Below are positions 4,278 through 44,203 of a stretch of 64,000 bases of DNA, in pieces. This DNA is from Hymenobacter sp. 5317J-9 (GTDB taxonomy: Bacteria > Bacteroidota > Bacteroidia > Cytophagales > Hymenobacteraceae): NCBI RefSeq assembly GCF_022921075.1, contig NZ_CP095050.1:2046001-2110000 (forward strand), in the 5' to 3' direction. Both the position numbers and the translations under genes were made by a program. Within the stretch, counting starts at the first letter, position 1; every line of letters begins with the position of its first letter. The notes under the pieces are model-generated. The model did no database searches and was not told where the DNA came from. It saw only the letters and a list, made by a program, of their open reading frames with translations.

Positions 4278-4288
4278 GAACTGAAACG

Positions 4289-4401
4289 AAAAGAACGTCA
4301 TGCAGAGCGCAGCGAAGCATCTTTACTGCTCAAGCTAATCAAAACGATTGGTTTACTATTGCGGTAAAGATGCTTCGCTGCGCTCTGCATGACGTTCTTT
4401 T
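4289..4401. repeat. palindromic intergenic element, family A (113 bp)
   Basis: Perfect 38-bp inverted arms at 4289-4326 and 4364-4401 contain the core ACGTCATGCAGAGCGCAGCG and enclose a 37-bp AT-richer loop. Related copies lie at 16143, 30400, 31028 and 44097, and a short one at 23228. This copy splits a histidine kinase gene from its response regulator. Confidence 0.9.
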
Positions 4402-4423
4402 GTATCCAAACCACACCGTCCCA

Positions 4424-5266: not shown

Positions 5267-5851
5267 CTACTCCATCCGCAGCCGCTTGAGTACTAAGCGG
5301 AAGCCGGGGAGCACCGGCCCGGCCACCAAATCCTGGTCGAAACCCACCACGGGGCGCACGGGCTGGCCGGGTTCGAAGATGTACACCGACTCGGTGGCGG
5401 GCGCGATGAGCCAACCCAGCCGGGCGCCGGCTTCAAGCCAGTGCTCCATTTTGCGCATGGTGTCGGTGAGGCGGTCGGTAGGCGAGAGCAGTTCCACCAC
5501 AAAATCGGGGCAAATGCGAGCAAAGCCGCGCCGGTCTTCCGAACTAAGTGCATTCCAGTTGGCCCAGGCTATCCAGCTAGCATCGGGCGAGAGCATGGCT
5601 CCGGTATCGAGGGTGAAGCCAGCGGAGGAATCGAAGGTTTTACCAAGCCCACTCTCAACGTTCCAATTAGCCAGTTGGCGGTTCAGCTCACTGTTGTAAG
5701 CACCGGTTTCGGAGTTGGTAGGCGGCATGATGGTAATTTGGTGCTGGGCATCGCGCTCAATGCGTTGGTCGCGGTTGTCCATGCAGAACTGGTAAAATTC
5801 CTCGTCGGTGAGGCGTTCGAGCACGGGGCTTTTTAGCTTGATGGCGGTCAT
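5267..5851 (-). CDS. Uma2-family (DUF820) predicted endonuclease
   Basis: The protein has 194 residues, the usual Uma2 length. The PD-(D/E)XK-like core is visible as LSPDASWI (about residue 90) followed by CPDFVVELLSPTD (about 115-127), then RKMEHWLEAGARLGWLI, the hallmark C-terminal block (K/RM..W...G..LGWLI.P). The nuclease role is inferred from the fold; few members have been tested, and the family is expanded in Cyanobacteria and Bacteroidota. It lies 36 bp downstream of the second LytTR regulator on the same strand, between two convergent LytS/LytTR systems, and may be read with the upstream pair. Confidence 0.8.
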   Translation of the reverse strand: MTAIKLKSPVLERLTDEEFYQFCMDNRDQRIERDAQHQITIMPPTNSETGAYNSELNRQLANWNVESGLGKTFDSSAGFTLDTGAMLSPDASWIAWANWNALSSEDRRGFARICPDFVVELLSPTDRLTDTMRKMEHWLEAGARLGWLIAPATESVYIFEPGQPVRPVVGFDQDLVAGPVLPGFRLVLKRLRME

Positions 5852-5887
5852 GGCAAAGCAAGTTGGAATACCAATATACGTCGGAAC

Positions 5888-6688
5888 CTACCCTTCCAGC
5901 CAGGCTTTCAGGGCCGGGGCTTTCTCGCGGCTCACCAGCACTTCTTCGGCCGGGGCGGGGTGCAGCTCCACCAGCAGCTTGCCGCCAAAGTGCGGAAGCA
6001 GGCGGCGCACGGCCGGCAGGTGGGCAATGACCTGGCGGTTGAGGCGGAAGAACTGGGCGGGGTCGAGCAGGCCTTCGAGCTGCTCCAGGGTGTAGTCGAG
6101 CACGAAGCGGCGCCCGTCGGCGGCCACCAGCGTCACGGTCTCGTGGCGGCTGATAAACCAAGCTGCTTCGGCCACGGGCAGGGGCAGCAATTGCTCGCCC
6201 TGGCGCACCAAAAACCGCGTTTTGTAGGGCCGGCCGGGGCGGGGCAGGGCGTCTAGGAGGCGCTCCAGGTTGGAGGTGGCCGGCGGAAGGGCCGCGCTAT
6301 CGGCGTTGCCTGGCTCGGCGGGCGGCGATGCGCCGGGCCACTGGCGCAGCTTGGCGAGGGCCGCCTGCAGCTCGGCCAGCTTCACCGGTTTCAGCAAATA
6401 CGCCACGCTGTTGGCCTGAAACGCCCGAATGGCATACGCATCAAACGCCGTGGTGAAAATGACCGGGCTGGGCACCACGGCCTGCTCCCAGATTTCCAGG
6501 CTGAGGCCATCGGCCAGCTGAATGTCGCTGAGAATGAGGGTGGGAGCGGGGTGGGCGGCCAGCCAGGTCAGGGCGCTGCTCACGGTGTCGAGCACGGCCA
6601 CCACCCGCGCTTCGGGCGCGGCCTGGGCCACGAGGCGCTGGAGGCGTTCGGCGGCCGGGTATTCGTCTTCGAGCAGCAGAATGGTCAT
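5888..6688 (-). CDS. LytTR-family response regulator
   Basis: The protein has 266 residues. The receiver has the acidic pair ED at 7-8, Asp55 in LILSDIQL, FTTAFD and YLLKPVK. After a Pro/Ala-rich linker, the LytTR domain (about 155-262) shows TRFLVRQGEQLLPLPVAEAAWF, DPAQFFRLNRQVIAHL and a final VSREKAPALKAWLEG. Its layout matches the regulator at 4424-5227 almost block for block, so they are paralogues. The start codon overlaps the kinase stop (6685-6688), giving translational coupling of a kinase-regulator pair. Confidence 0.9.
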   Translation of the reverse strand: MTILLLEDEYPAAERLQRLVAQAAPEARVVAVLDTVSSALTWLAAHPAPTLILSDIQLADGLSLEIWEQAVVPSPVIFTTAFDAYAIRAFQANSVAYLLKPVKLAELQAALAKLRQWPGASPPAEPGNADSAALPPATSNLERLLDALPRPGRPYKTRFLVRQGEQLLPLPVAEAAWFISRHETVTLVAADGRRFVLDYTLEQLEGLLDPAQFFRLNRQVIAHLPAVRRLLPHFGGKLLVELHPAPAEEVLVSREKAPALKAWLEG

Positions 6689-14784: not shown

Positions 14785-15176
14785 AAGGGCGACGACGCGG
14801 GTTCACCATCCGCCGCGCGAAGTTTTTCCGCGCCCAGAATGGCGGCAACGCCCGCCGCATACGTGAGCAGGTCGAGCCATGAAAAGGCCGTGCCCAGCAC
14901 CACCCGCGCCAGCGCCGAATGCTGGAGCCCCAACCACCGCAGCAGGTGAAAGTACTGGCCGGCCTCCACGGCGCAGGCCACCAGCAGGGCCAGGCCCGCC
15001 AGCGGCAGCACGCCCGCTTTCAGCACGCTGCGCAAAAAACAATACACCAGCACCACCGCCAGCATGTCGCCGAAATACGGCCGGATAAGCGCGTCGTGCA
15101 CGTAGCGCGCAATGATGATTTCAACCAGCAGCACGCCCACGCCCGCCCAGAAATAGCCGCTGCGGAAGGTGAGCAT
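14781..15176 (-). CDS. DUF2809 membrane protein
   Basis: The protein has 131 residues from the ATG at 15176 (MLTFRSGYFW); a start at 15275 would reach into the terminator hairpin. It follows the DUF2809 pattern: LLVEIIIARYVHDALIRPYFGDMLAVVLVYCFLRS, then ACAVEAGQYFHLLRWLGLQHSALARVVLGTAFSWLDLLTYAAG, with four membrane segments. The function of the family is unknown. It follows menB on the same strand but is separated from it by a strong terminator, and its stop overlaps that of the small plus-strand gene. Confidence 0.8.
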   Translation of the reverse strand: MLTFRSGYFWAGVGVLLVEIIIARYVHDALIRPYFGDMLAVVLVYCFLRSVLKAGVLPLAGLALLVACAVEAGQYFHLLRWLGLQHSALARVVLGTAFSWLDLLTYAAGVAAILGAEKLRAADGEPASSPF

Positions 15177-15237
15177 AGGGTACAGGTAATTGGGAAGAGT
15201 AAGCGGCTGCATCGGCCGGGGCAAAACTAACCTGTCC

Positions 15238-15272
15238 ACAAAAAAGGCCTGCACGTTGGTGCAGGCCTTTTT
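15238..15272. terminator. Rho-independent terminator after menB
   Basis: The arms AAAAAGGCCTGCAC and GTGCAGGCCTTTTT close a 4-nt loop, with A/T tracts on both sides. On the minus strand it lies 23 bp past the menB stop. Confidence 0.85.
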
Positions 15273-15295
15273 CATAAAGAGTCAACCGCCCGCGA

Positions 15296-16120
<825 letters not shown>

Positions 16121-16142
16121 AGGGGATGGAATGAATAAGAAA

Positions 16143-16238
16143 GAACGTCATGCAGAGCGCAGCGAAGCATCTTGCCCGCCACCAGTAATTAATCAGTTAC
16201 TGCGGTAAAGATGCTTCGCTGCGCTCTGCATGACGTTC
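16143..16238. repeat. palindromic intergenic element, family A (96 bp)
   Basis: Perfect 31-bp arms at 16143-16173 and 16208-16238 have the same core as the 4289 copy. The loop contains AGTAATTAATCAGTTACTGC, which recurs in altered form in the 31028 and 44097 copies. It separates menD from menB. Confidence 0.9.
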
Positions 16239-16247
16239 AATCAAAGG

Positions 16248-18128
16248 TTAAGAAAAGGCTTGTTTCACCGCCGCGCGGTATCGCTCAAAAAACGCCGCGT
16301 TGGTTTTAGAGTCGGTAAAGACCTCCAAAATTGCCGCGCCGGTTTCGGCTGCAAAGAAAACCGGCAGCGCGGCTTCAAGTTCAGCAAACGTCGAAACCGG
16401 GAAGTAGCGCAGGTTGAAATCGCGCGCCGTGTTCTCGGCCGTGAGCCCCTGGCGCGTCTCAAAAAACTCGTCCAGCTCCGGCTGCTGCCGCGGCCCGTCG
16501 ATGATGCGGAAAATGCCCCCGCCGTGGTTGTTGAACAGCACCACGCGCAGGTTGGGCGTGGGGTAGTTGTGCCAGAAGGCGTTGCGGTCGTAGAAAAACG
16601 CCACGTCGCCAGTCAGCAGCACCACCGGGCGGCCGGGCTGGGCCAGCGCCGCGCCCACGGCCGTGGAAGTGCAGCCGTCGATGCCGCTGGTGCCGCGGTT
16701 GGCAAACACCTCGATGTGCCGGCCGTGCGGCAGCCCCAGAATGTTGGCATAGCGCACGGCCATGCTGTTGGCCAGGTGCAGCGCGGTATAAATAGGCAGC
16801 GCGTTTAGGGACAGTCGGAAGGCCGAAAACTCATTGAACTCCGGCATCGGCCGCGCAAAAAAGTCGCCCAGTAACTGGGTTGCGGCGGCATCGGCCTTGT
16901 GCCAGGCATCTCCCAGGCCGGCCGGCCACCCACCCCGCGGAACCGAGGACAACCAGTGCGTGGCACCGGTGGGCGTGCCCGATTCGGTGGAATTAGCCGA
17001 AATTTGAATAGCGTAACCGACCTGCTGCGGCACGTCGGCGGGCGGCAGCTCCGCCGTGGCCAGCGCCTGGAAGAACGTGGCTGGTTCCAAGCGAATGATT
17101 TCCGTGGTGCGCCGAAACGTGTCCGACGCCGGCCCGCTGGCTTGAACGTGCCAATGTTGCTGGGGGGCTGCATCGCGCAGAAATAGCTTAAGGGCTTTTG
17201 AAATCAACGACTGCCCAAATGTGATAAGCAAATCTGGCTGCAACGCGGCTTTTTCATCGGCCGACAAGCCCGCCAGAAACACATCATGCCGATGCAAAGC
17301 AAAATCGTAAGCGGGATTTTCGGCGGCCGAACCGTTCAGTATTTCATCATGCAAAAGGTCCTGTTCGCCGCTCACGTTGGCAATGACGTCGGCAATTACC
17401 GGGAAGCCATGCTCGGCGGAAAGCGTGCGCAGCGCAACTTCCAAGTCGGCATCGGCTCGGTGTTGGCCGGCCACAATCAGCACGCGGCCGGCGGCTTTGG
17501 CGTCCTGCAGTGCCCCTGGCAAGGGGATGCCCGCTGGAAAAGGGTAATCCGTGTCGCGGATGATTTTTACGTCCTGCTCGTAGCGCGCTTCCTCGCCGGC
17601 CTTCGGGTAAAAAGGCTCGCGCAGGGGCACGTTCACCTGCACCGGACCGGCAGGGTAGGCGCTGGCCAGGTTGATTGCTTCGTTCACAATGCGCTCGGCG
17701 TGCCATTTGGCATCGGCGTGCGTGGTGTCCACGGGGAAATCAAACGCGCCCTTGGCGTGGCGCCCGTACAGGTTTTGTTGCCGAATGGTCTGGCCGTCGA
17801 GCTGGTCTATCCACTCGGGCGGCCGGTCGGCGGTGAGCACCAGCAGCGGCACCTGCTGAAAAAACGCCTCGGCCACGGCCGGCGCATAGTTCAGCCCCGC
17901 CGAGCCCGAGGTGCACACCAGCACCACCGGCCGCCGGGTGGCCTGCGCAATGCCTAGCCCAATGAAAGCCGCCGCGCGCTCATCGGGCACCACCCGCAGT
18001 TTGCCCGCGAACGCCGGGTGCCGGGCAAAGGCCAGCGTGAGCGGCGCCGAGCGCGAGCCGGGCGAAAGCACCACGTCGGTAATGCCGTGGCGGGCGCAGA
18101 TTTCGGCGATGTTGTAAACGGCCTGCAT
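16248..18128 (-). CDS. menD: 2-succinyl-5-enolpyruvyl-6-hydroxy-3-cyclohexene-1-carboxylate synthase
   Basis: The protein has 626 residues and is a thiamine-diphosphate enzyme. The N-terminal Pyr domain begins AEICARHGITDVVLSPGSRSAPLTLAFARHP with the conserved CTSGSAGLNYAPAVAEAF; the middle domain is more variable; the C-terminal PP domain has NRGTSGIDGCTSTAVGAALA and the cofactor/Mg motif GDVAFFYDRNAF. It adds a 2-oxoglutarate-derived succinic semialdehyde unit to isochorismate. It is slightly longer than E. coli MenD (556). A repeat-filled gap separates it from menF upstream, and a family A element follows it. Confidence 0.95.
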   Translation of the reverse strand: MQAVYNIAEICARHGITDVVLSPGSRSAPLTLAFARHPAFAGKLRVVPDERAAAFIGLGIAQATRRPVVLVCTSGSAGLNYAPAVAEAFFQQVPLLVLTADRPPEWIDQLDGQTIRQQNLYGRHAKGAFDFPVDTTHADAKWHAERIVNEAINLASAYPAGPVQVNVPLREPFYPKAGEEARYEQDVKIIRDTDYPFPAGIPLPGALQDAKAAGRVLIVAGQHRADADLEVALRTLSAEHGFPVIADVIANVSGEQDLLHDEILNGSAAENPAYDFALHRHDVFLAGLSADEKAALQPDLLITFGQSLISKALKLFLRDAAPQQHWHVQASGPASDTFRRTTEIIRLEPATFFQALATAELPPADVPQQVGYAIQISANSTESGTPTGATHWLSSVPRGGWPAGLGDAWHKADAAATQLLGDFFARPMPEFNEFSAFRLSLNALPIYTALHLANSMAVRYANILGLPHGRHIEVFANRGTSGIDGCTSTAVGAALAQPGRPVVLLTGDVAFFYDRNAFWHNYPTPNLRVVLFNNHGGGIFRIIDGPRQQPELDEFFETRQGLTAENTARDFNLRYFPVSTFAELEAALPVFFAAETGAAILEVFTDSKTNAAFFERYRAAVKQAFS

Positions 18129-18132
18129 AGGG

Positions 18133-18262
18133 TCAGTTGTCAGTTAATAGTTAACAGTGAGCAGTGAATGATTAATAGTGGACAGCTCGCAGGAGCAAGC
18201 AGAACGGCATTGTCTACCGGCAACTGCTCACTGTTCACTGATAATTATTCACTGCTTACTGC
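18133..18262. repeat. family B repeat block (CAGTGAACAGT-type)
   Basis: The block is built from variants of AACAGTGAGCAGTGAA on one side and TCACTGCTCACTGTTCACTG on the other, forming a loose inverted repeat around a unique centre (about 18185-18220). It fills the menF-menD gap, and its right end supplies the last codons and stop of menF. A related block lies at 22560-22670. Confidence 0.75.
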
Positions 18263-19488
18263 AGCACTGCTGCTACGGTTTGCAGCTTCATTTCGGTTTC
18301 CTGCCACTCGCGCTCGGGGTCGGAATCGACGGTGAGGCCGGTGCCGGCGTAGAGAATGGCCTCGTCGGCGCGGAGCTGCAGGCAGCGTAGGTTTACGTAG
18401 AGGCGGGCCACGCCGGGCGCGCTCACGTTTACCGGCCCTAGAAAGCCGCTGTAGTAGGCGCGGTCGTAGCCCTCGTGTGCTTGAATGAATTCCATGGCCG
18501 CCTGCCGGGGCATGCCGCCCACGGCCGAGGTGGGGTGCAGCAGGCGCAGCATGTCGGTGCCAAGATTGGGGAAGGGTACCTGCCGCAGGTTCACTTCAAA
18601 GTCGGTGCGCAGGTGCAGCAGCTGGCCGGCCACCACGGTGCGCGGGCCGGTTTCGTGGTACTCGCGCAGCCGCAGCTGCTTGAAACAGCTCACAATGTAG
18701 CGGGCCACCAGCGCCTGCTCTTCAATTTCCTTCTGGCGCCAGATGGCCGTGCGCGGCGTCACCTCGGCCGTCACGGGCTGGGTGGCGGCCAGCGCCATGG
18801 TGTGGAAGGTGCCGTCGGCCGTCACCTCGGCCAGCACTTCGGGCGTGGCGCCCAGCCAAGTGCCCACGCCCGGCACGCTCACCAGCGACACAAACGCTCG
18901 TGGGTATTGCTCAGCCAACTCCTCAAACGCGGCAAAGGCATCGAAGCCGGCCGGCAGGGGCCGCCGCGCCGCGCGCGAAGTCACCACCTTCACCACTTCT
19001 TTGGCCTCGATGGCCGCTACACCCTTCTCCACCAGCTGCGTGTACTCGGTATGAGTGGCGGGGTGGGGGGCTGGCTGCGGGCCGCGGTGCCAGGCCAGCT
19101 GGTCCAGGGTGGGGGCCGCCAGCCACGCGGCCAGCCCGGGGATGATGTCGCTGGCCGCTGGCGCCACCGTCACGGTGTCGGGTTCGGCCGCGTCGTAGCG
19201 CACGTCGGCGGGTAGAAAAAGGGCCGGGTTGTGGTCGGAGTCTCTAAAAGGAAAAAAGGCGAAGCCGGCCGGCGCCTGGGCGTCCAGGGCCGGGGGCAGG
19301 CCGGTGAAGGAGGATTCGAGGCTGCGCGCCACCAGCAGGCGCGGGTGCTCGGCACCAGGCTCGCGCCACAGGGCGAGCGGGCGGCCGGTGCGCAGCGCGC
19401 CAGCCGCCAGGTGCCGCAGCCGGGCCCGCGCGTCGAGGCCAGCCGCCGCGGCGGGCCAGCGCAATTGCCGAAGTTCAGGGCCCTGCAT
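18256..19488 (-). CDS. menF: isochorismate synthase
   Basis: The protein has 410 residues of the chorismate-binding family. After a variable N-terminal part (about 1-140) come the conserved blocks VVKVVTSRAARRPLP, FVSLVSVPGVGTWLGATPEVLAEV, FHTMALAATQPV, HLRTDFEVNL, LHPTSAVGGMPRQAAMEFIQAHEGYDRAYYSGFLGPV with catalytic acidic residues, and VNLRCLQLRADEAILYAGTGLTVDSDPEREWQETEMKL. It converts chorismate to isochorismate. In this men-gene setting, menaquinone rather than siderophore synthesis is the likely role. The thioesterase stop upstream abuts its start with no gap. Its last codons lie in a family B repeat. Confidence 0.92.
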   Translation of the reverse strand: MQGPELRQLRWPAAAAGLDARARLRHLAAGALRTGRPLALWREPGAEHPRLLVARSLESSFTGLPPALDAQAPAGFAFFPFRDSDHNPALFLPADVRYDAAEPDTVTVAPAASDIIPGLAAWLAAPTLDQLAWHRGPQPAPHPATHTEYTQLVEKGVAAIEAKEVVKVVTSRAARRPLPAGFDAFAAFEELAEQYPRAFVSLVSVPGVGTWLGATPEVLAEVTADGTFHTMALAATQPVTAEVTPRTAIWRQKEIEEQALVARYIVSCFKQLRLREYHETGPRTVVAGQLLHLRTDFEVNLRQVPFPNLGTDMLRLLHPTSAVGGMPRQAAMEFIQAHEGYDRAYYSGFLGPVNVSAPGVARLYVNLRCLQLRADEAILYAGTGLTVDSDPEREWQETEMKLQTVAAVLQ

Positions 19489-19920
19489 CTACGCTCGCTT
19501 TTCGCCGCCGGGCAGGTCGATGACGGCCATTGTGATGCGGCTGATGCAGACCAGTGCCCCGGTTTCTTCGTGCGTAATGCGGATTTCCCACACCTGCGTG
19601 CTGCGGCCCACGTGCACTGGCGTGGCGCGGCCGCGCACCCAGCCGTCGCGCACGCCCTTCAGGTGGTTGGCGTTGATTTCGAGGCCCACGCAGGCCTGCT
19701 TGCTGCGGTCCACGCGCAAAGCGGCGGCAATGCTGCCCAGCGTTTCGGCCAGGGCCACCGAGGCGCCGCCGTGCAGCAGGCCCATGGGCTGGTGGGTGCG
19801 GCCGTCCACGGGCATGCGGCCTTCGAGGGCGTCTTCCGACACGGCCGTGATTTCGATGCCAAGGGCGTGGGCCAGGTTGGGCCGCGAATCCGTCCAGCGC
19901 TTCACTTCTTCCAGGGTCAT
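19489..19920 (-). CDS. menI: 1,4-dihydroxy-2-naphthoyl-CoA hydrolase (hotdog thioesterase)
   Basis: The protein has 143 residues from the ATG at 19920 (MTLEEV); an in-frame start at 19992 adds a tail absent from relatives. It is a PaaI/YdiI-type hotdog protein: LEGRMPVDGRTHQPMGLLHGGASVALAETLGS contains the conserved catalytic Glu after HGGAS, and CVGLEINANHLKGVRDGWVRGRATPVHVGRSTQVWEI is very close to E. coli YdiI/MenI as I recall it. That enzyme releases CoA from DHNA-CoA. The gene directly abuts menF, which supports the assignment. A CAGCTTTG box lies 11 bp before the ATG. A general thioesterase role remains possible. Confidence 0.82.
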   Translation of the reverse strand: MTLEEVKRWTDSRPNLAHALGIEITAVSEDALEGRMPVDGRTHQPMGLLHGGASVALAETLGSIAAALRVDRSKQACVGLEINANHLKGVRDGWVRGRATPVHVGRSTQVWEIRITHEETGALVCISRITMAVIDLPGGEKRA

Positions 19921-20060
19921 GGGGGCAGGGGCAAAGCTGCTCAAAAACGCAAAACGGCCTTTGAACAGCGGGTTGAGGGGTAGGTGGTCCAACGGCCGGG
20001 GCTAAAACCCCGTACTTTGAACGATTGTTGACGGATTGTACCGCAAAACTACCACGCAAC

Positions 20061-20675
20061 GTGAGGCCCCGGACCATCTTCCTGCTGCGCCACGGCCAGA
20101 CCGATTTCAACGTGCGCGGCATTGTGCAGGGCAGCGGCGTCGATTCGAGCCTGAACGACACCGGCCGCCGCCAGGCCGCGCAGTTTTTCGCGGCCTACGG
20201 GCACGTGCCCTTCGATAAGGTATATACCTCGGCCCTGCGCCGCACCCACGAGTCGGTGCAGCAGTTCCTCGACCTCGGCCTGCCCCACGAAGCACATGCC
20301 GGCCTCAACGAGATAAGCTGGGGCGTGCGCGAGGGCACCCGCATCACGATGGAAGAAGACGCCGAGTACCGCCAAGTGCTGCACGACTGGGTGAGCGGCC
20401 GCACCGACGCCCGCCTGACCGGTGGCGAAAGCCCCGACGAAGTAGCCGCCCGCCAGCGCCCCTTCATCGAGCTGCTGAAATCCCGTGCCGACGAGCAAAC
20501 CGTGCTGGTGTGCATGCACGGCCGCGCCATGCGGGTGATGCTTTGCCAGCTGCTCAACTACCCGCTCAGCGCCATGGAGGGCTTCGAGCACAGCAACTTA
20601 TGCCTGTACAAGCTGGAGTACACGGGTACGGTGTTTACGGTGAAGAATTTTCTCGATGTGGCGCATTTGCAATAG
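20061..20675 (+). CDS. histidine phosphatase superfamily protein
   Basis: The protein has 204 residues from the GTG at 20061. The RHG signature (IFLLRHGQTDFN) lies at its N-terminus, as is usual. Other family residues are in VYTSALRRTHESVQQF, the acid/base region LNEISWGVREG, and VLVCMHGRAMRVMLCQLL with the second catalytic His. It is close to the phosphoglycerate-mutase/CobC type; the substrate cannot be told. A TTG at 20025 is an alternative start, and a GTACTTTG box ends 5 bp before it (20012-20019), which fits the leaderless arrangement seen elsewhere. It diverges from menI, and its stop lies at the edge of a 34-bp palindrome. Confidence 0.82.
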   Translation: MRPRTIFLLRHGQTDFNVRGIVQGSGVDSSLNDTGRRQAAQFFAAYGHVPFDKVYTSALRRTHESVQQFLDLGLPHEAHAGLNEISWGVREGTRITMEEDAEYRQVLHDWVSGRTDARLTGGESPDEVAARQRPFIELLKSRADEQTVLVCMHGRAMRVMLCQLLNYPLSAMEGFEHSNLCLYKLEYTGTVFTVKNFLDVAHLQ

Positions 20676-20772
20676 CGCAAGGTTTCGCGAGGTGAAAAGA
20701 GGTTTCGCAATGGATGTGATGGCGGCTGGTTTTGCCCCGCGAAACCTCTTTTCACCTCGCGAAACCTTGCGC
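20675..20772. repeat. 34-bp perfect inverted repeat
   Basis: The arms at 20675-20708 and 20739-20772 are exact inverse complements (core AAGGTTTCGCGAGGTGAAAA) around a 30-bp loop. The first base is the last base of the phosphatase stop codon. Each arm contains GGTTTCGC twice. It may act as a terminator before the E2 gene at 20835, or it may be a further mobile palindrome. Confidence 0.85.
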
Positions 20773-20834
20773 TGATTGTCTGGCCAACTTTTCGGGCTAA
20801 TTTTGGCCTCCTCAATCCAAGCGCGACAAATCTG

Positions 20835-22556
20835 ATGGCCGAAATCATAAAAATGCCCAAAATGAGCGACACGATGACCGAAGGGACCATCGCGGCCTGG
20901 CTCAAAAAGGTGGGTGATAAAGTTAAGTCCGGGGACATCCTGGCCGAAGTCGAGACCGACAAAGCCACCATGGAGCTGGAGAATTACGAAGACGGCACCC
21001 TGCTCTACATCGGCCCGAAAGAGAAAGAATCGGTGGCCGTCGATGGCATTCTGGCCATTGTAGGTAAGGAAGGCGAGGACTTTTCGGCCCTGCTGTCGGG
21101 CGCCCAGGGCGGCGCCGCGGCCCCGGCTCCGGCCGCTGCTCCTGCGCCCGAAGCTCCCAAGGCGGAAGCACCGGCGGCTCCTGCGCCGGCCCCGGCTCCG
21201 ACCGCTCCGTCGCCGGCCGCTGCTCCCGCTGCCCCGGCCAATGGCAAAAAAGCCACCGTGGTGCGCATGCCCAAAATGAGCGACACGATGACCGAAGGCA
21301 CCATTGCCGCGTGGTTGAAAAACGTGGGCGACAAAGTGAAATCGGGCGACGTGCTGGCCGAAGTCGAGACCGACAAAGCCACCATGGAGCTGGAAAACTA
21401 CGAAGACGGCACCCTGCTCTACACCGGCCCTAAAGCCGGCGAAGCCGTGGCCGTCGACGGCATCCTGGCCATCATTGGCGAGGAAGGAGCCGACATTCAG
21501 GCCCTGCTGGGCGGCCAAAGCGGCGGTGCCGCTGCGGCACCCGCCCCGGCTGCTGCACCTGCAGAAGCTGCTGCTCCGGCCGCTGCGCCTGCTGCCCCGG
21601 CTCAGCCGGCTGCAGCTGCGCCGGCGGTTAATGGCGGCCGCATCCTGGCCTCGCCGCTGGCCAAGAGCATTGCCAAAGAAAAAGGCATCAACCTGGCCCA
21701 GGTGGTGGGCTCGGGCGACAACGGCCGCATTGTGCAGCGCGACGTGGAGAACTTCCAGCCCGGTGCTGCTCCGGCCGCTGCGCAGGCGGCGCCCGCTGCC
21801 GCTCCTACTTCGGCCCCGGCCCCGCAAGCAGCCGCCCCGGCCGCTGCCCCGGCTGCCAGCGCCCCGGCCTCGACCGATACGTACACCGACACGCCCGTGT
21901 CGCAGATGCGTAAGGTGATTGCCAAGCGCCTGTCCGAGAGCCTGTTCACGGCCCCGCATTTCTATCTCACGATGGAAATCAACATGGACAAGGCCATGGA
22001 AGCCCGCGTAAAGCTCAACGAGCTGTCGCCGGTGAAGCTGAGCTTCAACGACCTGGTGCTGAAATCAGCGGCCATTGCGCTGCGCTCGCACCCAGCCGTG
22101 AACTCCTCGTGGCTAGGCGACAAAATCCGCCAGAACAAGGTCATCAACATCGGCGTGGCCGTGGCCGTGGACGAAGGTCTGCTGGTACCCGTGATTCGCA
22201 ACGCCGACCAAAAAGGCCTGGCCACCATCGCCAACGAGGTGAAAGAGCTGGCCGGCAAAGCCAAGAGCAAGAAGCTGCAGCCAGCCGAGTGGGAGGGCAG
22301 CACCTTCACCATCTCGAACCTGGGCATGTTTGGCATCGATGAGTTTACCGCCATCATCAACCCGCCCGATGCCTGCATCCTGGCCGTGGGCGGCATCAAG
22401 CAAACCGCCATTGTGAAAGACGGCCAGCTGGCCATCGGCAACATCATGAAGGTGACCTTGAGCTGCGACCACCGCGTGGTGGACGGCGCCACCGGTGCCG
22501 CCTTCCTGCAAACGCTGAAAAGCCTGCTGGAAGACCCCATGCGCTTGATGATTTGA
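20835..22556 (+). CDS. pyruvate dehydrogenase complex dihydrolipoyl acetyltransferase (E2)
   Basis: The protein has 573 residues. Two lipoyl domains lie at about 2-77 and 142-216, each with the lipoylation site ETDKATMELE (Lys43 and Lys181) and almost the same sequence. Ala/Pro linkers lead to a peripheral-subunit-binding domain (about 269-307: ILASPLAKSIAKEKGINLAQVVGSGDNGRIV) and the catalytic domain (about 352-573) with the active-site motif DHRVVDGA. It transfers acetyl groups from E1 to CoA. The TDTPVSQMRKVIAKRL start and DHRVVDGA favour pyruvate over 2-oxoglutarate specificity. E1 and E3 genes are not adjacent. No clear -7 box was found. Confidence 0.92.
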   Translation: MAEIIKMPKMSDTMTEGTIAAWLKKVGDKVKSGDILAEVETDKATMELENYEDGTLLYIGPKEKESVAVDGILAIVGKEGEDFSALLSGAQGGAAAPAPAAAPAPEAPKAEAPAAPAPAPAPTAPSPAAAPAAPANGKKATVVRMPKMSDTMTEGTIAAWLKNVGDKVKSGDVLAEVETDKATMELENYEDGTLLYTGPKAGEAVAVDGILAIIGEEGADIQALLGGQSGGAAAAPAPAAAPAEAAAPAAAPAAPAQPAAAAPAVNGGRILASPLAKSIAKEKGINLAQVVGSGDNGRIVQRDVENFQPGAAPAAAQAAPAAAPTSAPAPQAAAPAAAPAASAPASTDTYTDTPVSQMRKVIAKRLSESLFTAPHFYLTMEINMDKAMEARVKLNELSPVKLSFNDLVLKSAAIALRSHPAVNSSWLGDKIRQNKVINIGVAVAVDEGLLVPVIRNADQKGLATIANEVKELAGKAKSKKLQPAEWEGSTFTISNLGMFGIDEFTAIINPPDACILAVGGIKQTAIVKDGQLAIGNIMKVTLSCDHRVVDGATGAAFLQTLKSLLEDPMRLMI

Positions 22557-22559
22557 TAA

Positions 22560-22670
22560 TCAGTGGACAGTTGACAGTGAGCAGTGAACAGTGGCCCCGG
22601 CTACATTCACTGCTCACTTTGCTTTTATGGCGCTCAACTGTTCACTGCTCACTGTTCACTGTTCACTGAA
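22560..22670. repeat. family B repeat block abutting the hslV start codon
   Basis: The left part has CAGTGGACAGTTGACAGTGAGCAGTGAACAG-type units; the right part repeats TTCACTGCTCACTGTTCACT in inverse orientation. The block begins 3 bp after the E2 stop and its last base precedes the hslV ATG directly, so it forms the whole 5' untranslated region. Confidence 0.8.
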
Positions 22671-23207
22671 ATGAAGATTCGCTCAACAACCGTCCTCGGC
22701 ATCCGGCACAACGGCGAAATCGCCCTCGGCGCCGACGGGCAGGCCACCATGGACAAGCACGTGGCCAAGAACAACGTGCGCAAAGTCCGCAAGCTGCTCG
22801 ATGGCAAAGTCGTAACCGGTTTTGCCGGCTCTACGGCCGATGCGTTCATGCTGCTCGACCGCTTCGAGGAGAAGCTGACCAGCTACGGCGGCAACCTCAA
22901 GCGCGCCGCCATTGAGCTGGCCAAGGACTGGCGCAAAGACCAGTACCTGCGCAAGCTCGAAGCCATGATGGTGGTAGCCGACAAGGACGAGCTGCTCATC
23001 CTCAGCGGCACCGGCGACGTATTGGAGCCGGACTCCGACGTGGCCGCCATCGGCTCGGGCGCGATGTATGCGCAGGCGGCGGCGTTGGCGCTTAAGAAGC
23101 ACGCGCCGCACCTCACCGCCCGCCAGATGGTGGAAGAGGGCCTCAACATCGCGGCCGACATCTGCATCTACACCAATCATAATTTGATGATTGAGTCGCC
23201 GTCGTAG
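22671..23207 (+). CDS. hslV: ATP-dependent protease subunit HslV
   Basis: The protein has 178 residues, typical for HslV. The catalytic Thr is in RSTTVLGIRHNGEIALGADGQATM; aligned to E. coli (MTTIVSV), Thr6 is the nucleophile, so the first five residues must be removed. Other family blocks are VRKLLDGKVVTGFAGSTADAFMLLDRFEEKL, AIELAKDWRKDQYLRKLEAMMVVAD, LSGTGDVLEPDSDVAAIGSGAMYAQAAALAL and the C-terminal ADICIYTNHNLMIE. It forms dodecamers and works with the unfoldase HslU, which is not in this window. The whole 5' leader is repeat DNA, so its promoter must be inside or beyond the repeat. Confidence 0.95.
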   Translation: MKIRSTTVLGIRHNGEIALGADGQATMDKHVAKNNVRKVRKLLDGKVVTGFAGSTADAFMLLDRFEEKLTSYGGNLKRAAIELAKDWRKDQYLRKLEAMMVVADKDELLILSGTGDVLEPDSDVAAIGSGAMYAQAAALALKKHAPHLTARQMVEEGLNIAADICIYTNHNLMIESPS

Positions 23208-23227
23208 CGCTTGTCATCGTTTAAGAA

Positions 23228-23264
23228 GAACGTCATGCTTCGACTGCGCTCAGCATGACCGTTC
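23228..23264. repeat. short or deleted copy of family A palindrome
   Basis: GAACGTCATGC at 23228-23238 pairs with GCATGACCGTTC ending at 23264, with TTCGACTGCGCTCA in the loop; this loop matches the inner arm of the longer family A copies. It looks like an element that lost its left inner arm and centre. Confidence 0.7.
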
Positions 23265-23299
23265 GATACAACCCGGAAAACAACACAACTCCCCAACCC

Positions 23300-24271
23300 A
23301 TGCACGTTTCCAACTTCATCCGCCACCACTTCCGCCACTTCAACGCTGCCGCCCTTGTGGACGCGGCCGATGGCTACAACAAGCACCTCGCCGATGGCGG
23401 CAAGATGATGATAACCCTGGCCGGCGCCATGAGCACCGCCGAAATGGGCATTCAGCTGGCCGAGCTGATTCGGCAGGACAAGGTGCAGATTATCAGCTGC
23501 ACCGGCGCCAACCTGGAGGAGGATATCTTCAACCTGGTGGCCCACGACTTCTACGAGCGGGTGCCGCACTACCGCGACCTCACCGCCGCCGACGAGCAGG
23601 CCCTGCTGGCCCGCCACATGAACCGCGTGACCGATACCTGCATTCCCGAGGAAGAGGCCATGCGCCGCCTGGAGCACTCGGTGCTGAAGTTCTGGGAGAA
23701 GGCCGATAAGGCCGGCGAAAGCTATTTCCCCCACGAATTCTTCTACCAGATTCTGCTGAGCGGCGAGCTGGAGCAGTACTACCAGATTGACCCCAAAGAC
23801 TCCTGGATGCTGGCCGCAGCCGAGAAAAACCTGCCCATCATCTGCCCCGGCTGGGAAGACTCCACGCTCGGCAACATCTACGCCGGCCACGTGATGACCG
23901 GCGACGTGAAGAACGTGCACACCATGCGCACGGGCATTCAGTACATGATGTACCTGGCCGACTGGTACACCCAGAACGCCACCGAAGAAAGCAAGGTGGG
24001 CTTCTTCCAGATTGGCGGCGGCATTGCCGGCGACTTCCCCATCTGCGTGGTGCCCATGCTGCACCAGGATTTGCAGCGCCACGAGGTGCCGCTGTGGGGC
24101 TATTTCTGCCAGATTTCGGACTCCACCACCAGCTACGGCAGCTACTCCGGCGCCGTGCCCAACGAGAAAATCACCTGGGGCAAGCTGGGCGAGAAAACCC
24201 CGAAGTACATCATCGAGTCGGACGCCACCATCGTGGCGCCGTTGGTGTTCGCCATCGTGCTGGGGCAGTAA
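23300..24271 (+). CDS. deoxyhypusine synthase family protein, non-canonical active site
   Basis: The protein has 323 residues from the ATG at 23300. The Rossmann-like DHS fold is recognisable: MMITLAGAMSTAEMGIQLAELIRQDKVQIISCTGANLEED, PIICPGWEDSTLGN and the C-terminal DSTTSYGSYSGAVPNEKITWGK plus SDATIVAPLVFAIVL, which parallel the NAD- and spermidine-binding parts of DHS. The catalytic-lysine motif GGGxxKHH is replaced by GGGIAGDF (239-246), so the usual Lys is absent. Bacteria lack eIF5A; other members make homospermidine. Here the reaction is unknown, perhaps another polyamine or guanidine transfer. A strong terminator follows. Confidence 0.8.
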   Translation: MHVSNFIRHHFRHFNAAALVDAADGYNKHLADGGKMMITLAGAMSTAEMGIQLAELIRQDKVQIISCTGANLEEDIFNLVAHDFYERVPHYRDLTAADEQALLARHMNRVTDTCIPEEEAMRRLEHSVLKFWEKADKAGESYFPHEFFYQILLSGELEQYYQIDPKDSWMLAAAEKNLPIICPGWEDSTLGNIYAGHVMTGDVKNVHTMRTGIQYMMYLADWYTQNATEESKVGFFQIGGGIAGDFPICVVPMLHQDLQRHEVPLWGYFCQISDSTTSYGSYSGAVPNEKITWGKLGEKTPKYIIESDATIVAPLVFAIVLGQ

Positions 24272-24288
24272 TTGCCGCTGTATCAACG

Positions 24289-24327
24289 AAAAAAAAGCCC
24301 GTCGCTGGTACAGCGGCGGGCTTTTTT
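24289..24327. terminator. bidirectional Rho-independent terminator
   Basis: AAAAAAGCCCG..CGCTG pairs with CAGCG..CGGGCTTTTTT around GTA. It lies between convergent genes ending at 24271 and 24347. Confidence 0.88.
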
Positions 24328-24346
24328 ATTTTTGGGGTGGGGGCGG

Positions 24347-25276
24347 TTAGCGCGTGGCCGCCGCCGTTGCCTTCTTGGGAACAGCTTTTGGCCGCAGGTC
24401 CGGCCGCTCGTTTAGCACTTGCACCGTGAGCACGATGATGCACACCATGGCCGCTAATAGCAGCACCACAATTTGCAGTAGCGAAATGCCCAGCGCCCGG
24501 CTGTAGCGCCGCACTGCGGTAAAGGTGGGAGCAGCCTGCAAGAGCTGCGCGTGTACCCAGAACGAATAAATCAGCGTTGGGATAAAGACCAGTTGCGAGG
24601 CCGACTTTAGGAAGGCGGGGTTGCCGGCCAGCAGTGCGGGAAGCATCACGGCCAGATTGATGACGGTGAGGGTGCCCCCGATGAAGCAGTTGGCCAGCAA
24701 TATTTCGGCGTAGTTGTAACCCGCTCGTTTCAGCAGCCACCACGCTACTAAGGCGTTGAGCGGCATGAGCACCAACTGCATCAGGTAGGGGTGCTTCATG
24801 GTGGTGGACAGGTAACGCTCCATCACCACTGACATCAGCCCCATGGATGGCGAACCCGCGCTAGTGGGCTGCGACGACAGCATGGCCTGCTGCAGGTCGA
24901 ACTGAAAAGCCGACATGACCAGCGCCGATAGGCCAACCAACAGCAGCAGGTAGCTCACCGGACGGAACTGCCGCGTGCGCTGCCCGGCCAGGTACCCCCG
25001 GATGGTAAGGCCCGGGCGCGTCAGCATTTGATAGAAAGTGTACACCAGCCCCTTGTCGACGTGCCAGACGGAGTGCGGCAGGTCGTGCAGCAGCAGGTGC
25101 TTCAGCGTGATGCGGTGCGTGTCGGCTGGCTGGCCGCAATGAGCGCAAAACTTGTCGGTCAGGGCCGCGCCGCAGTCGAGGCAGGCGTGGTGGGCCTGGG
25201 GGCCACCGCTGGGGGCCGATTCAAGGGCGTCGACGGCCACCAGTGCCGTCAGTTGCGTGGAGTAGTCAAGCAGCAT
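24347..25276 (-). CDS. DUF3667 zinc-ribbon membrane protein
   Basis: The protein has 309 residues. A zinc ribbon (CLDCGAALTDKFCAHCGQ, about 33-50) is followed by the DUF3667 block ITLKHLLLHDLPHSVWHVDKGLVYTFYQMLTRPGLTIRGYLAGQRTRQFRPVSYLLLL, then four or five membrane segments (about 112-130, 165-195, 205-225, 232-250, 270-292). The family is found mostly in Bacteroidota, and its function is unknown. The first ATG places the ribbon about 32 residues in, which is acceptable. It converges on the DHS-like gene. Confidence 0.85.
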   Translation of the reverse strand: MLLDYSTQLTALVAVDALESAPSGGPQAHHACLDCGAALTDKFCAHCGQPADTHRITLKHLLLHDLPHSVWHVDKGLVYTFYQMLTRPGLTIRGYLAGQRTRQFRPVSYLLLLVGLSALVMSAFQFDLQQAMLSSQPTSAGSPSMGLMSVVMERYLSTTMKHPYLMQLVLMPLNALVAWWLLKRAGYNYAEILLANCFIGGTLTVINLAVMLPALLAGNPAFLKSASQLVFIPTLIYSFWVHAQLLQAAPTFTAVRRYSRALGISLLQIVVLLLAAMVCIIVLTVQVLNERPDLRPKAVPKKATAAATR

Positions 25277-30359: not shown

Positions 30360-30399
30360 GGGGTGGCAGGTGGGGAGGCGGTAGGGCAAATAAAAGCTT

Positions 30400-30490
30400 C
30401 TGTCATCCTGAGCGCAGCGAAGGACCTTATCGCCGTTGGGCACAACCGATGCAAACGTGAGAAGGTCCTTCGCTGCGCTCAGGATGACAG
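30400..30490. repeat. palindromic intergenic element, family A variant (91 bp)
   Basis: Perfect 29-bp arms at 30400-30428 and 30462-30490 have the core CTGTCATCCTGAGCGCAGCG. It shares GAGCGCAGCGAAG with other copies, but GGACC replaces CATCT, and the loop is different, so it is a subfamily. Confidence 0.85.
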
Positions 30491-30629
30491 GCGGCTTGTA
30501 TCACTAAGGTTCAAAGATACCCCAACACCCGGCCCGCCCCCGCCGTTTATCTTTACAGCACAATTCGTAAGTTGGCCGTCTCATTCAACCATCGACGCTA
30601 TTTCCCACCCATACCCCCAACCCATCCCT

Positions 30630-30998: not shown

Positions 30999-31027
30999 AG
31001 CGTCCGTTTGGGCCAACAGCCTCGAAA

Positions 31028-31122
31028 AACGTCATGCTGAGCGAAGTCGAAGCATCTCTCCCGCGCAAGTAATTCATTTACTATGGCACGCGAGATGCTT
31101 CGACTTCGTTCAGCATGACGTT
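31028..31122. repeat. palindromic intergenic element, family A (95 bp)
   Basis: 31-bp arms at 31028-31058 and 31092-31122 pair throughout except one mismatch (core ACGTCATGCTGAGCGAAGTC); the loop begins with CCGCGCAAGTAATTCATTTA. It lies between the PUR-like gene and ychF. Confidence 0.9.
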
Positions 31123-31154
31123 CTTTTTTACAACCGAACCCGATGCCCAGGCCG

Positions 31155-31162
31155 TACCTTTG
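31155..31162 (+). promoter_or_regulatory. -7 promoter box of ychF (TACCTTTG)
   Basis: A perfect TAnnTTTG match 54 bp before the ychF ATG, just after a family A palindrome. Confidence 0.55.
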
Positions 31163-31216
31163 CGGCCGAATTGCCTGCAATTCACTCATTCACTCAGTCA
31201 CTCATTCACCCAAAAT

Positions 31217-44062: not shown

Positions 44063-44096
44063 GGGCAGGTTTTCAGCAGAAATAAAAAAGTAAAAG

Positions 44097-44192
44097 GAAC
44101 GTCATGCTGAGCCTGTCGAAGCATCTCTGCCGCAATAGTAATTAGTTATGTTGCGCGGTAGAGATGCTTCGGCTGCGCTCAGCATGACGTTC
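44097..44192. repeat. palindromic intergenic element, family A (96 bp)
   Basis: Inverted arms with a few mismatches: GAACGTCATGCTGAGC at 44097-44112 pairs with the end at 44192, and CGAAGCATCTCT pairs with AGAGATGCTTCG. The loop has ATAGTAATTAGTTATG. It lies between convergent genes and is followed by a T-run, so it may double as a terminator. Confidence 0.88.
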
Positions 44193-44203
44193 TTTTTTTC
44201 TCG

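Follow-up and report, generated by a model that had tools for sequence, protein, structure and literature searches.

Can a short repeat that lodges between two genes become part of them? The question is raised by two intergenic gaps in a 64,000-nucleotide stretch of DNA from Hymenobacter sp. 5317J-9 (contig NZ_CP095050.1, positions 2,046,001 to 2,110,000), here called the window, in whose coordinates positions are given unless otherwise stated. One gap separates menF from menD and the other the gene for a dihydrolipoamide acyltransferase (E2) from hslV; these provisional names come from a preliminary description of the sequence and from general knowledge of the families. That description had seen both gaps filled by related heptad units, termed family B, and had supposed that the repeats set the end of one protein and the leader of another gene. 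The analysis reported here points to a family of miniature palindromes, resembling REP (repetitive extragenic palindrome) sequences or MITEs (miniature inverted-repeat transposable elements), whose arms are degenerate tandem heptads and which probably came to occupy the same gaps repeatedly. Because the corresponding gaps of sister species often hold unrelated hairpins or are nearly empty, the repeats resemble recurring insertions more than gene parts.

The span 18133-22670 contains two separate elements with four predicted genes between them (menF, two small genes and E2). As originally described, CAGTKRN-type units occupy both gaps (18134-18261 and 22561-22668), and they do so far above chance, but they are not simple direct repeats: each block is a single palindrome, with tandem CAGTKRN heptads on the left, an unrepeated core, and inverted complementary heptads on the right, of which Tandem Repeats Finder reported mere fragments. 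The first element lies in the gap between menD (16248-18128, minus strand) and menF (18256-19488, minus strand), the gap proper being 18129-18255 by the predicted reading-frame edges. Its menD-side arm (18134-18168, plus strand) reads by eye CAGTTGT, CAGTTAA, TAGTTAA, CAGTGAG, CAGTGAA, and its menF-side arm (18222-18261) reads on the minus strand CAGTAAG, CAGTGAA, TAATTAT, CAGTGAA, CAGTGAG, CAGTT. The second element fills the gap at 22557-22670 between E2 (20835-22556, plus strand) and hslV (22671-23207, plus strand). It begins four bases past the E2 stop with five heptads (CAGTGGA, CAGTTGA, CAGTGAG, CAGTGAA, CAGTGG; 22561-22594, plus strand), and its inverted right arm (22636-22668, minus strand) stops two bases short of the hslV ATG at 22671, whereas the preliminary description had placed its end directly before that codon. 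The gap is predicted to fold as one long hairpin. Inside it, an inner inverted copy, TTCACTGCTCACT, followed by TTTGCTTTTA (22606-22627, minus strand; by eye), could pair with 22575-22588 in place of the outer arm, and a comparable three-part layout was seen by eye at the same gap in G083, G010 and a group of congeners with GTTGTCA words.

The two elements belong to a sizeable family. A pattern of three successive units with at most 2 mismatches has 262 matches in the genome, compared with 6 for a reversed-pattern control, and the exact pattern has 118 compared with 0. From the first sites listed, 25 regions were fetched, the family being larger than the arrays treated here. Under a rule of at least 4 units and at least 2 steps of 7 nt, three of these regions (L041, L058 and L059) held no array, and the remainder together with the window gave 25 arrays. 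Units lie in both orientations in 22 of the 25, the single-armed exceptions being L055, L056 and L062, and most elements measure about 60-130 nt. The element at locus L048 aligns by BLAST, core and all, to about nine other sites in the genome; these alignments span most of the element at 73-79% identity. An L048-type copy in the congener G034 is 89% identical over 100 nt, and the L044 element is unchanged across the 113-nt gap of its orthologue in G008, the congener closest in the whole-genome searches (about 90% DNA identity). Copying has thus dispersed at least some of the family. A long array of this genome lies at C1:5150643-5150873.

Beyond this genome, the strict palindromic CAGTKRN pattern was present in 5 of 395 genomes drawn across the phylum, including the one studied here. 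Among 120 Hymenobacter genomes, own included, which formed the comparison set, 86 have a CAGTKRN match, a count of genomes with a match and not a measure of excess, since 16 of the 120 have matches to the reversed control themselves. These control matches (TGACNRK heptads) number up to 82 in G012, G036, G075, G092, G098 and 11 others and may represent another heptad word family. The idea of one word per genome was ruled out, as G039, G043 and H. sp. ASUV-10 (L066) each hold palindromes of several words. Likewise, a core motif YBGTTC after the left arm, suggested by the menF-menD gap, recurred by eye in only about three elements of fresh loci and is not claimed. Two sites outside the strain deserve mention in their own right: locus L353 (G115:C217) carries about 137 CAGTKRN-type unit matches at 5597-6587 in locus coordinates, with a short left arm, between convergent predicted genes, and one contig of a distant Bacteroidota genome (G352:C43; L300 and L354) carries four CAGTKRN palindromes with a common core.

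The arrays fit closely between genes. In 17 of the 25 arrays each edge is no more than 20 nt from a predicted gene, counting L050, whose array is overlapped for 20 nt by the predicted end of a gene. The same is true of 9 of the 20 arrays at fresh loci from six congeners, among which the loci L313 and L307 are orthologues of loci in the present genome; the close contact noted at the outset is thus genuine and common in the family. Genes throughout, including those of congeners, were called with a small finder that uses codon usage and was trained on the window. Of the 17 gap-filling arrays, 15 separate co-directional genes, 2 convergent and 0 divergent genes, while the 63 adjacent gene pairs of the window comprise 40 co-directional, 12 convergent and 11 divergent; this contrast (0/17 versus 11/63 divergent) is one of raw counts.

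How the same gap is treated by sister species can be followed at menF-menD, which was read in 70 of the 120 genomes, namely those with returned loci, with two gene matches that looked close, or with one match listed; in several of the other 50, menF and menD lie more than 2 kb apart. The gap measures 17-22 nt, that is, nearly empty, in 5 genomes (G046, G099, G033, G094 and G074), 26-60 nt in 3, 61-200 nt in 61 and longer in 1. Among the 64 gaps of 40-210 nt, 45 hold an inverted repeat that beats all 40 dinucleotide shuffles. Word classes here were judged by eye, as was whether a gap is filled or empty at L048, L051 and E2-hslV. The arms are built from CAGTKRN in 5 genomes including the present one, from CAATKRN in 2 and from AATTAAA-like words in 5; others carry TTAACA/TTAAATG-like words, octads such as GTGAACTG, or longer palindromes such as TCATGCTGAGC and TCATTGCGAGG, and G094 retains a one-arm CAATKRN remnant.

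The same comparison bears on the end of MenF. As had been noted, a repeat unit, CAGTAAG, does overlap the final menF codon (CAG) and its TAA stop (18256-18258, minus strand). The further proposal that the repeat sets the 3' end of menF finds no support in this genome: the MenF C-terminus ...AVLQ-stop is matched in G046 and G099, and because both have nearly empty gaps the repeat is not needed for it. Across the 70 genomes the position of the C-terminus is the same in 45; the protein is one residue shorter in 4, one longer in 10 and 2-7 longer in 11. In five of these last 11 (G039, G095, G113, G061 and G029) the added codons look by eye like repeat units, so that repeats likely set the MenF end in some congeners, to judge by these sequences. 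They are not the sole cause of longer proteins, since MenF is seven residues longer in G074, whose gap is nearly empty; in the remaining nearly empty gaps, those of G033 and G094, it is one shorter. At the other edge, the menD start codon appears by eye within a TTAAATG-like unit in 7 of the 70 genomes.

The claim for hslV fares better: from the E2 stop to the hslV ATG there are 114 nt, of which the element makes up 108, so that the leader consists of repeat as originally described and may also provide the ribosome-binding region. Of 30 loci returned for this gap, 23 showed both gene ends and 21 had E2 and hslV adjacent, and these 21 divide by eye into the word of the present strain (1), CAATGAG mixed (2), GTTGTCA (8), TCATCCTGAGC (5), TTAACAATT (3) and two others (1 each). 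In several word groups the hairpin is followed by T-rich sequence. Six congeners in which E2 lies elsewhere (L064, L066, L069, L071, L072 and L122) carry a TATTTTTG-like box directly before the hslV ATG, and by eye no Shine-Dalgarno sequence was seen in these six leaders; the box resembles the Bacteroidota promoter box, and none like it was seen by eye in the hslV leader of the present strain. Matches to HslV at 85-98% identity, 12 in number, all come from Hymenobacter, the nearest being H. artigasi, with Pontibacter next at no more than 84% (best 80 of 588 relatives by tblastn). As a separate observation, the hslV leader of H. artigasi (L064) contains a palindrome whose word is also found beside RAYT genes at L235 and L243.

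In a consensus scan, terminator-like sites with loops of 3-8 nt number 12 in the region against 5.7 expected from shuffles. One weak site, a consensus match only (stem CGGTA/TGCCG, tail TTCTGCTTGC), lies in the menF-menD core at 18205-18219 on the minus strand, and the scan found none in 22557-22670, where the inner hairpin is followed by eye by TTTGCTTTTA. Two promoter-like consensus sites were found in 17900-22900 against 0.6 expected, one of them within the menF-menD element on the antisense strand (18151-18179). Rfam 15 gave 24 matches in 15000-25000 at E values up to 1, with none at or above the gathering score.

Recurrent occupation extends to a handful of gaps, at which some palindrome is repeatedly present. 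The L048 gap was readable in 11 of 16 relatives searched and holds a palindrome, of several unrelated kinds, in all 11; G008 and G099 hold the same element as the present strain by descent. At L051, readable in 10 of 16 relatives, 6 are filled and 4 short. When the 31 gaps of the window for which G008, G043 and G039 have orthologous gaps were scored for strong inverted repeats (8 in the present strain and 3, 9 and 13 in the three congeners, respectively), 25 species pairs were found to occupy the same gap compared with 12.4 after permutation (1 of 20,000), at a single score cut-off of 15 that was chosen after the scores were seen; the count includes ordinary terminators and shared descent. Of the 25 pairs, 15 share no 11-mer and 10 do and are related. 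Filled gaps also have short counterparts: those at 4278-4423 and 16121-16247 correspond to 23 nt and 22 nt in G008, and that at 44063-44203 to 14 nt in G057. Finally, some palindromes are nested: in G001 (L304) the core of a heptad palindrome contains another with the word TCATTC, and similar nesting was seen in G078 and H. elongatus (L068), all by eye; nesting of this kind shows the order of arrival.

The window holds other palindromes that lie outside family B. The gaps at 4278-4423, 16121-16247, 31017-31216, 44063-44203 and 30360-30584 contain long and almost perfect palindromes of the TCATGCWGAGC and TCATCCTGAGC kinds, which are also frequent in the compared gaps of congeners. A separate long palindrome (CGCAAGGTTTCGCGAGGTG...) lies at 20676-20771, between the small gene at 20061-20675 and E2; it was not observed at the corresponding gap in G008, G043 or G039. 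A single-armed octad array (ATTCACTC) at 31180-31209 lies a few bases before a predicted start and is like the octad arms of other species.

If the family consists of mobile palindromes, how might they have moved? Terminal inverted repeats and dispersed copies, both features of MITEs, are present. Mobilisation by RAYT transposases was considered and rejected: the sample comprised 2 loci from the present genome and 30 of 43 places from 17 congeners picked mainly for many heptad matches (15 of the 17 having a PF01797 match), and of the resulting 32 PF01797 loci 28 were readable, none with heptad arms within 170 nt on either side. L237, L241, L242 and L248, which had no central gene model, were left out; the gene model of L229, which was kept, is too long. 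Hymenobacter RAYT-like genes (L224, L225 and L226-L255) mostly adjoin palindromes with words of their own. In the flanks of 21 elements, inspected by eye, no GTAG or CGTC tag was seen at the ends, and TT or AT precedes CAGT in 15 while AT or AA follows ACTG in 15.

Several results weigh against recurrent insertion of a mobile palindrome. Besides the missing RAYT link, no transposase was seen by eye to adjoin the G115 or G352 sites, the profile search having covered PF01797 only, and no target-site duplication was detected at 21 elements (mean 2.05 versus 2.30 permuted; 4418 of 5000). The two arms of an element, compared in 17 of the 25 arrays, match each other barely better than arms of different elements do: 0.904 versus 0.860 if the register may shift by steps of 7 nt (6 of 10,000), 0.803 versus 0.781 without shifts (631 of 10,000), and 770 of 10,000 at variable positions only, this two-sided test being weak. 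Much of the 73-79% identity in the L048 alignments falls in the arms. Eight of the 25 arrays in this genome and 11 of the 20 fresh congener arrays are not snug between genes, and L062 lies within a predicted gene. In 19 of the 64 menF-menD gaps no inverted repeat exceeds the shuffles, G039 being among them probably because part of its left arm sits inside menF. Some short gaps, such as those of G094 and, at L051, G099 and G020, look like decayed elements and not original empty sites. Moreover, the near-constant filling of some gaps exceeds what mere tolerance predicts.

This last point leads to the most serious alternative, which nevertheless seems rather unlikely, that some co-directional gaps are slots in which an mRNA hairpin is needed, as a partial terminator, RNA-end protector or decoupler, and in which any palindrome that lands is kept, with the consequence that the hairpin persists while its sequence turns over. 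Such selection would account for the rarity of nearly empty menF-menD gaps (just 5 of 70), for an L048 gap filled by eye with unrelated families in every readable relative (11/11), for co-occupation above permutation, and for the T-rich sequence behind the E2-hslV hairpin in several word groups. Yet some genomes manage without a hairpin (5/70 at menF-menD and 4/10 readable at L051), the 19 of 64 gaps without an excess inverted repeat are not what a required hairpin would leave, and terminator-like calls amount to one weak site in the menF-menD core and none in 22557-22670. Constraint and insertion preference, moreover, predict an identical pattern, and insertion preference, tolerance and need remain alternative causes of repeated occupation. 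The general form of this idea, that Hymenobacter operon gaps require a hairpin whose occupant is repeatedly replaced by unrelated mobile families, with form and not sequence conserved, is put forward only tentatively. Within it, E2-hslV may be a hairpin slot that works as an attenuator, a reading suggested by base-pairing potential: two alternative partners are available to the left arm, the outer arm and the inner copy with the T-rich sequence behind it, a layout recognised by eye in three word groups.

Two further explanations dispense with mobility or assign the repeats another task. Heptad tracts might be born at each gap by slippage alone and mirrored by template switching; long arrays such as G115:C217 (137 unit matches) and C1:5150643-5150873, the variation of words between loci and species, and the lack of end duplication all agree with this, but elements that align through a non-repetitive core between distant sites, together with the short gaps and nested elements of congeners, make it improbable as the whole account. 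Less probable again, and indeed very doubtful, is a role as translational control elements read by a repeat-binding protein, by analogy with what has been proposed for the TAACTGA repeats of Beggiatoaceae. TAACTGA and TCACTGA do occur among the units of right arms, and several of these arms end at a distance of 0-6 nt from the start codon that follows, that of hslV included; however, the inverted arms place units on both strands, convergent genes with no start codon flank 2 of the 17 gap-filling arrays, and unrelated palindromes occupy the same leaders.

Recurrent insertion of miniature palindromes thus remains the favored explanation, and a plausible history can be outlined. The elements would be non-autonomous, copied in trans by some enzyme, and would survive mainly where insertion breaks nothing, that is, after a stop, before a start, and between co-directional or convergent gene pairs. 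Slippage would lengthen or shorten the arms while their words drift, and old elements would decay to one arm or receive a newer palindrome within them. The menF element abuts a gene end that does not depend on it. The hslV element has become the entire leader, and in the transcript it would form a long hairpin separating E2 from hslV.

It is instructive to set these elements beside small repeats of other bacteria. REP/REPIN elements are said to have been described together with RAYT transposases by Bertels and Rainey in 2011, and small mobile dispersed repeats of Nostoc are reportedly associated with heptameric tandem repeats, according to Elhai and co-workers. REPs are small palindromes found mainly between co-directional or convergent genes, near 3' ends, and sometimes supply a stop codon (Di Nocera 2013, PMC3733652). 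The Hymenobacter gap-fillers resemble them in lying between co-directional or convergent genes and differ in having arms of tandem heptads, no GTAG/CGTC tag by eye and no linked RAYT found. TAACTGA heptamer repeats have been described from Beggiatoaceae, Cyanobacteria and five Bacteroidetes (MacGregor 2015, PMC4679880). The heptad is the same on one strand, being a rotation and complement of CAGTTAT, and those repeats too are mostly intergenic, mixed with related heptamers and patchy in phylogeny; in the Beggiatoaceae genome BOGUAY they lie mostly just 5' of start codons. They are described there as direct (one indirect in BOGUAY) and without predicted RNA structure, whereas the Hymenobacter units form the arms of palindromes (PMC4679880). 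Accordingly, CAGTTAT and CAGTTAA units among the arms are intergenic and tandem as in the TAACTGA type, but not in direct arrays, given both orientations in 22 of 25. Another repeat from the Bacteroidota is BrickBuilt, a MITE of Porphyromonas gingivalis that is likewise intergenic and has a tandem array inside a miniature inverted-repeat element (Klein 2015, PMC4596501). Its unit is 23 nt, its inverted ends are small, and it lies 49-591 nt from genes (PMC4596501), whereas in Hymenobacter the heptad arrays are themselves the inverted arms and lie a few nt from genes. None of these systems, as far as the open-access literature consulted describes them, couples arms of inverted heptads with the replacement of one palindrome by an unrelated one in the same gap.

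The genus thus offers a natural experiment in which one gene gap carries different hairpin repeats in sister species. With these palindromes, the TAACTGA heptamers known from Beggiatoaceae and Cyanobacteria, themselves unexplained, gain an inverted form that resembles an element. Should the hairpins be merely tolerated, the experiment would show how, in compact genomes, miniature repeats become gene leaders and sometimes gene ends. Should they be required, it would show an RNA shape that is kept while its sequence is exchanged wholesale, a form of conservation that annotation based on sequence conservation would miss.

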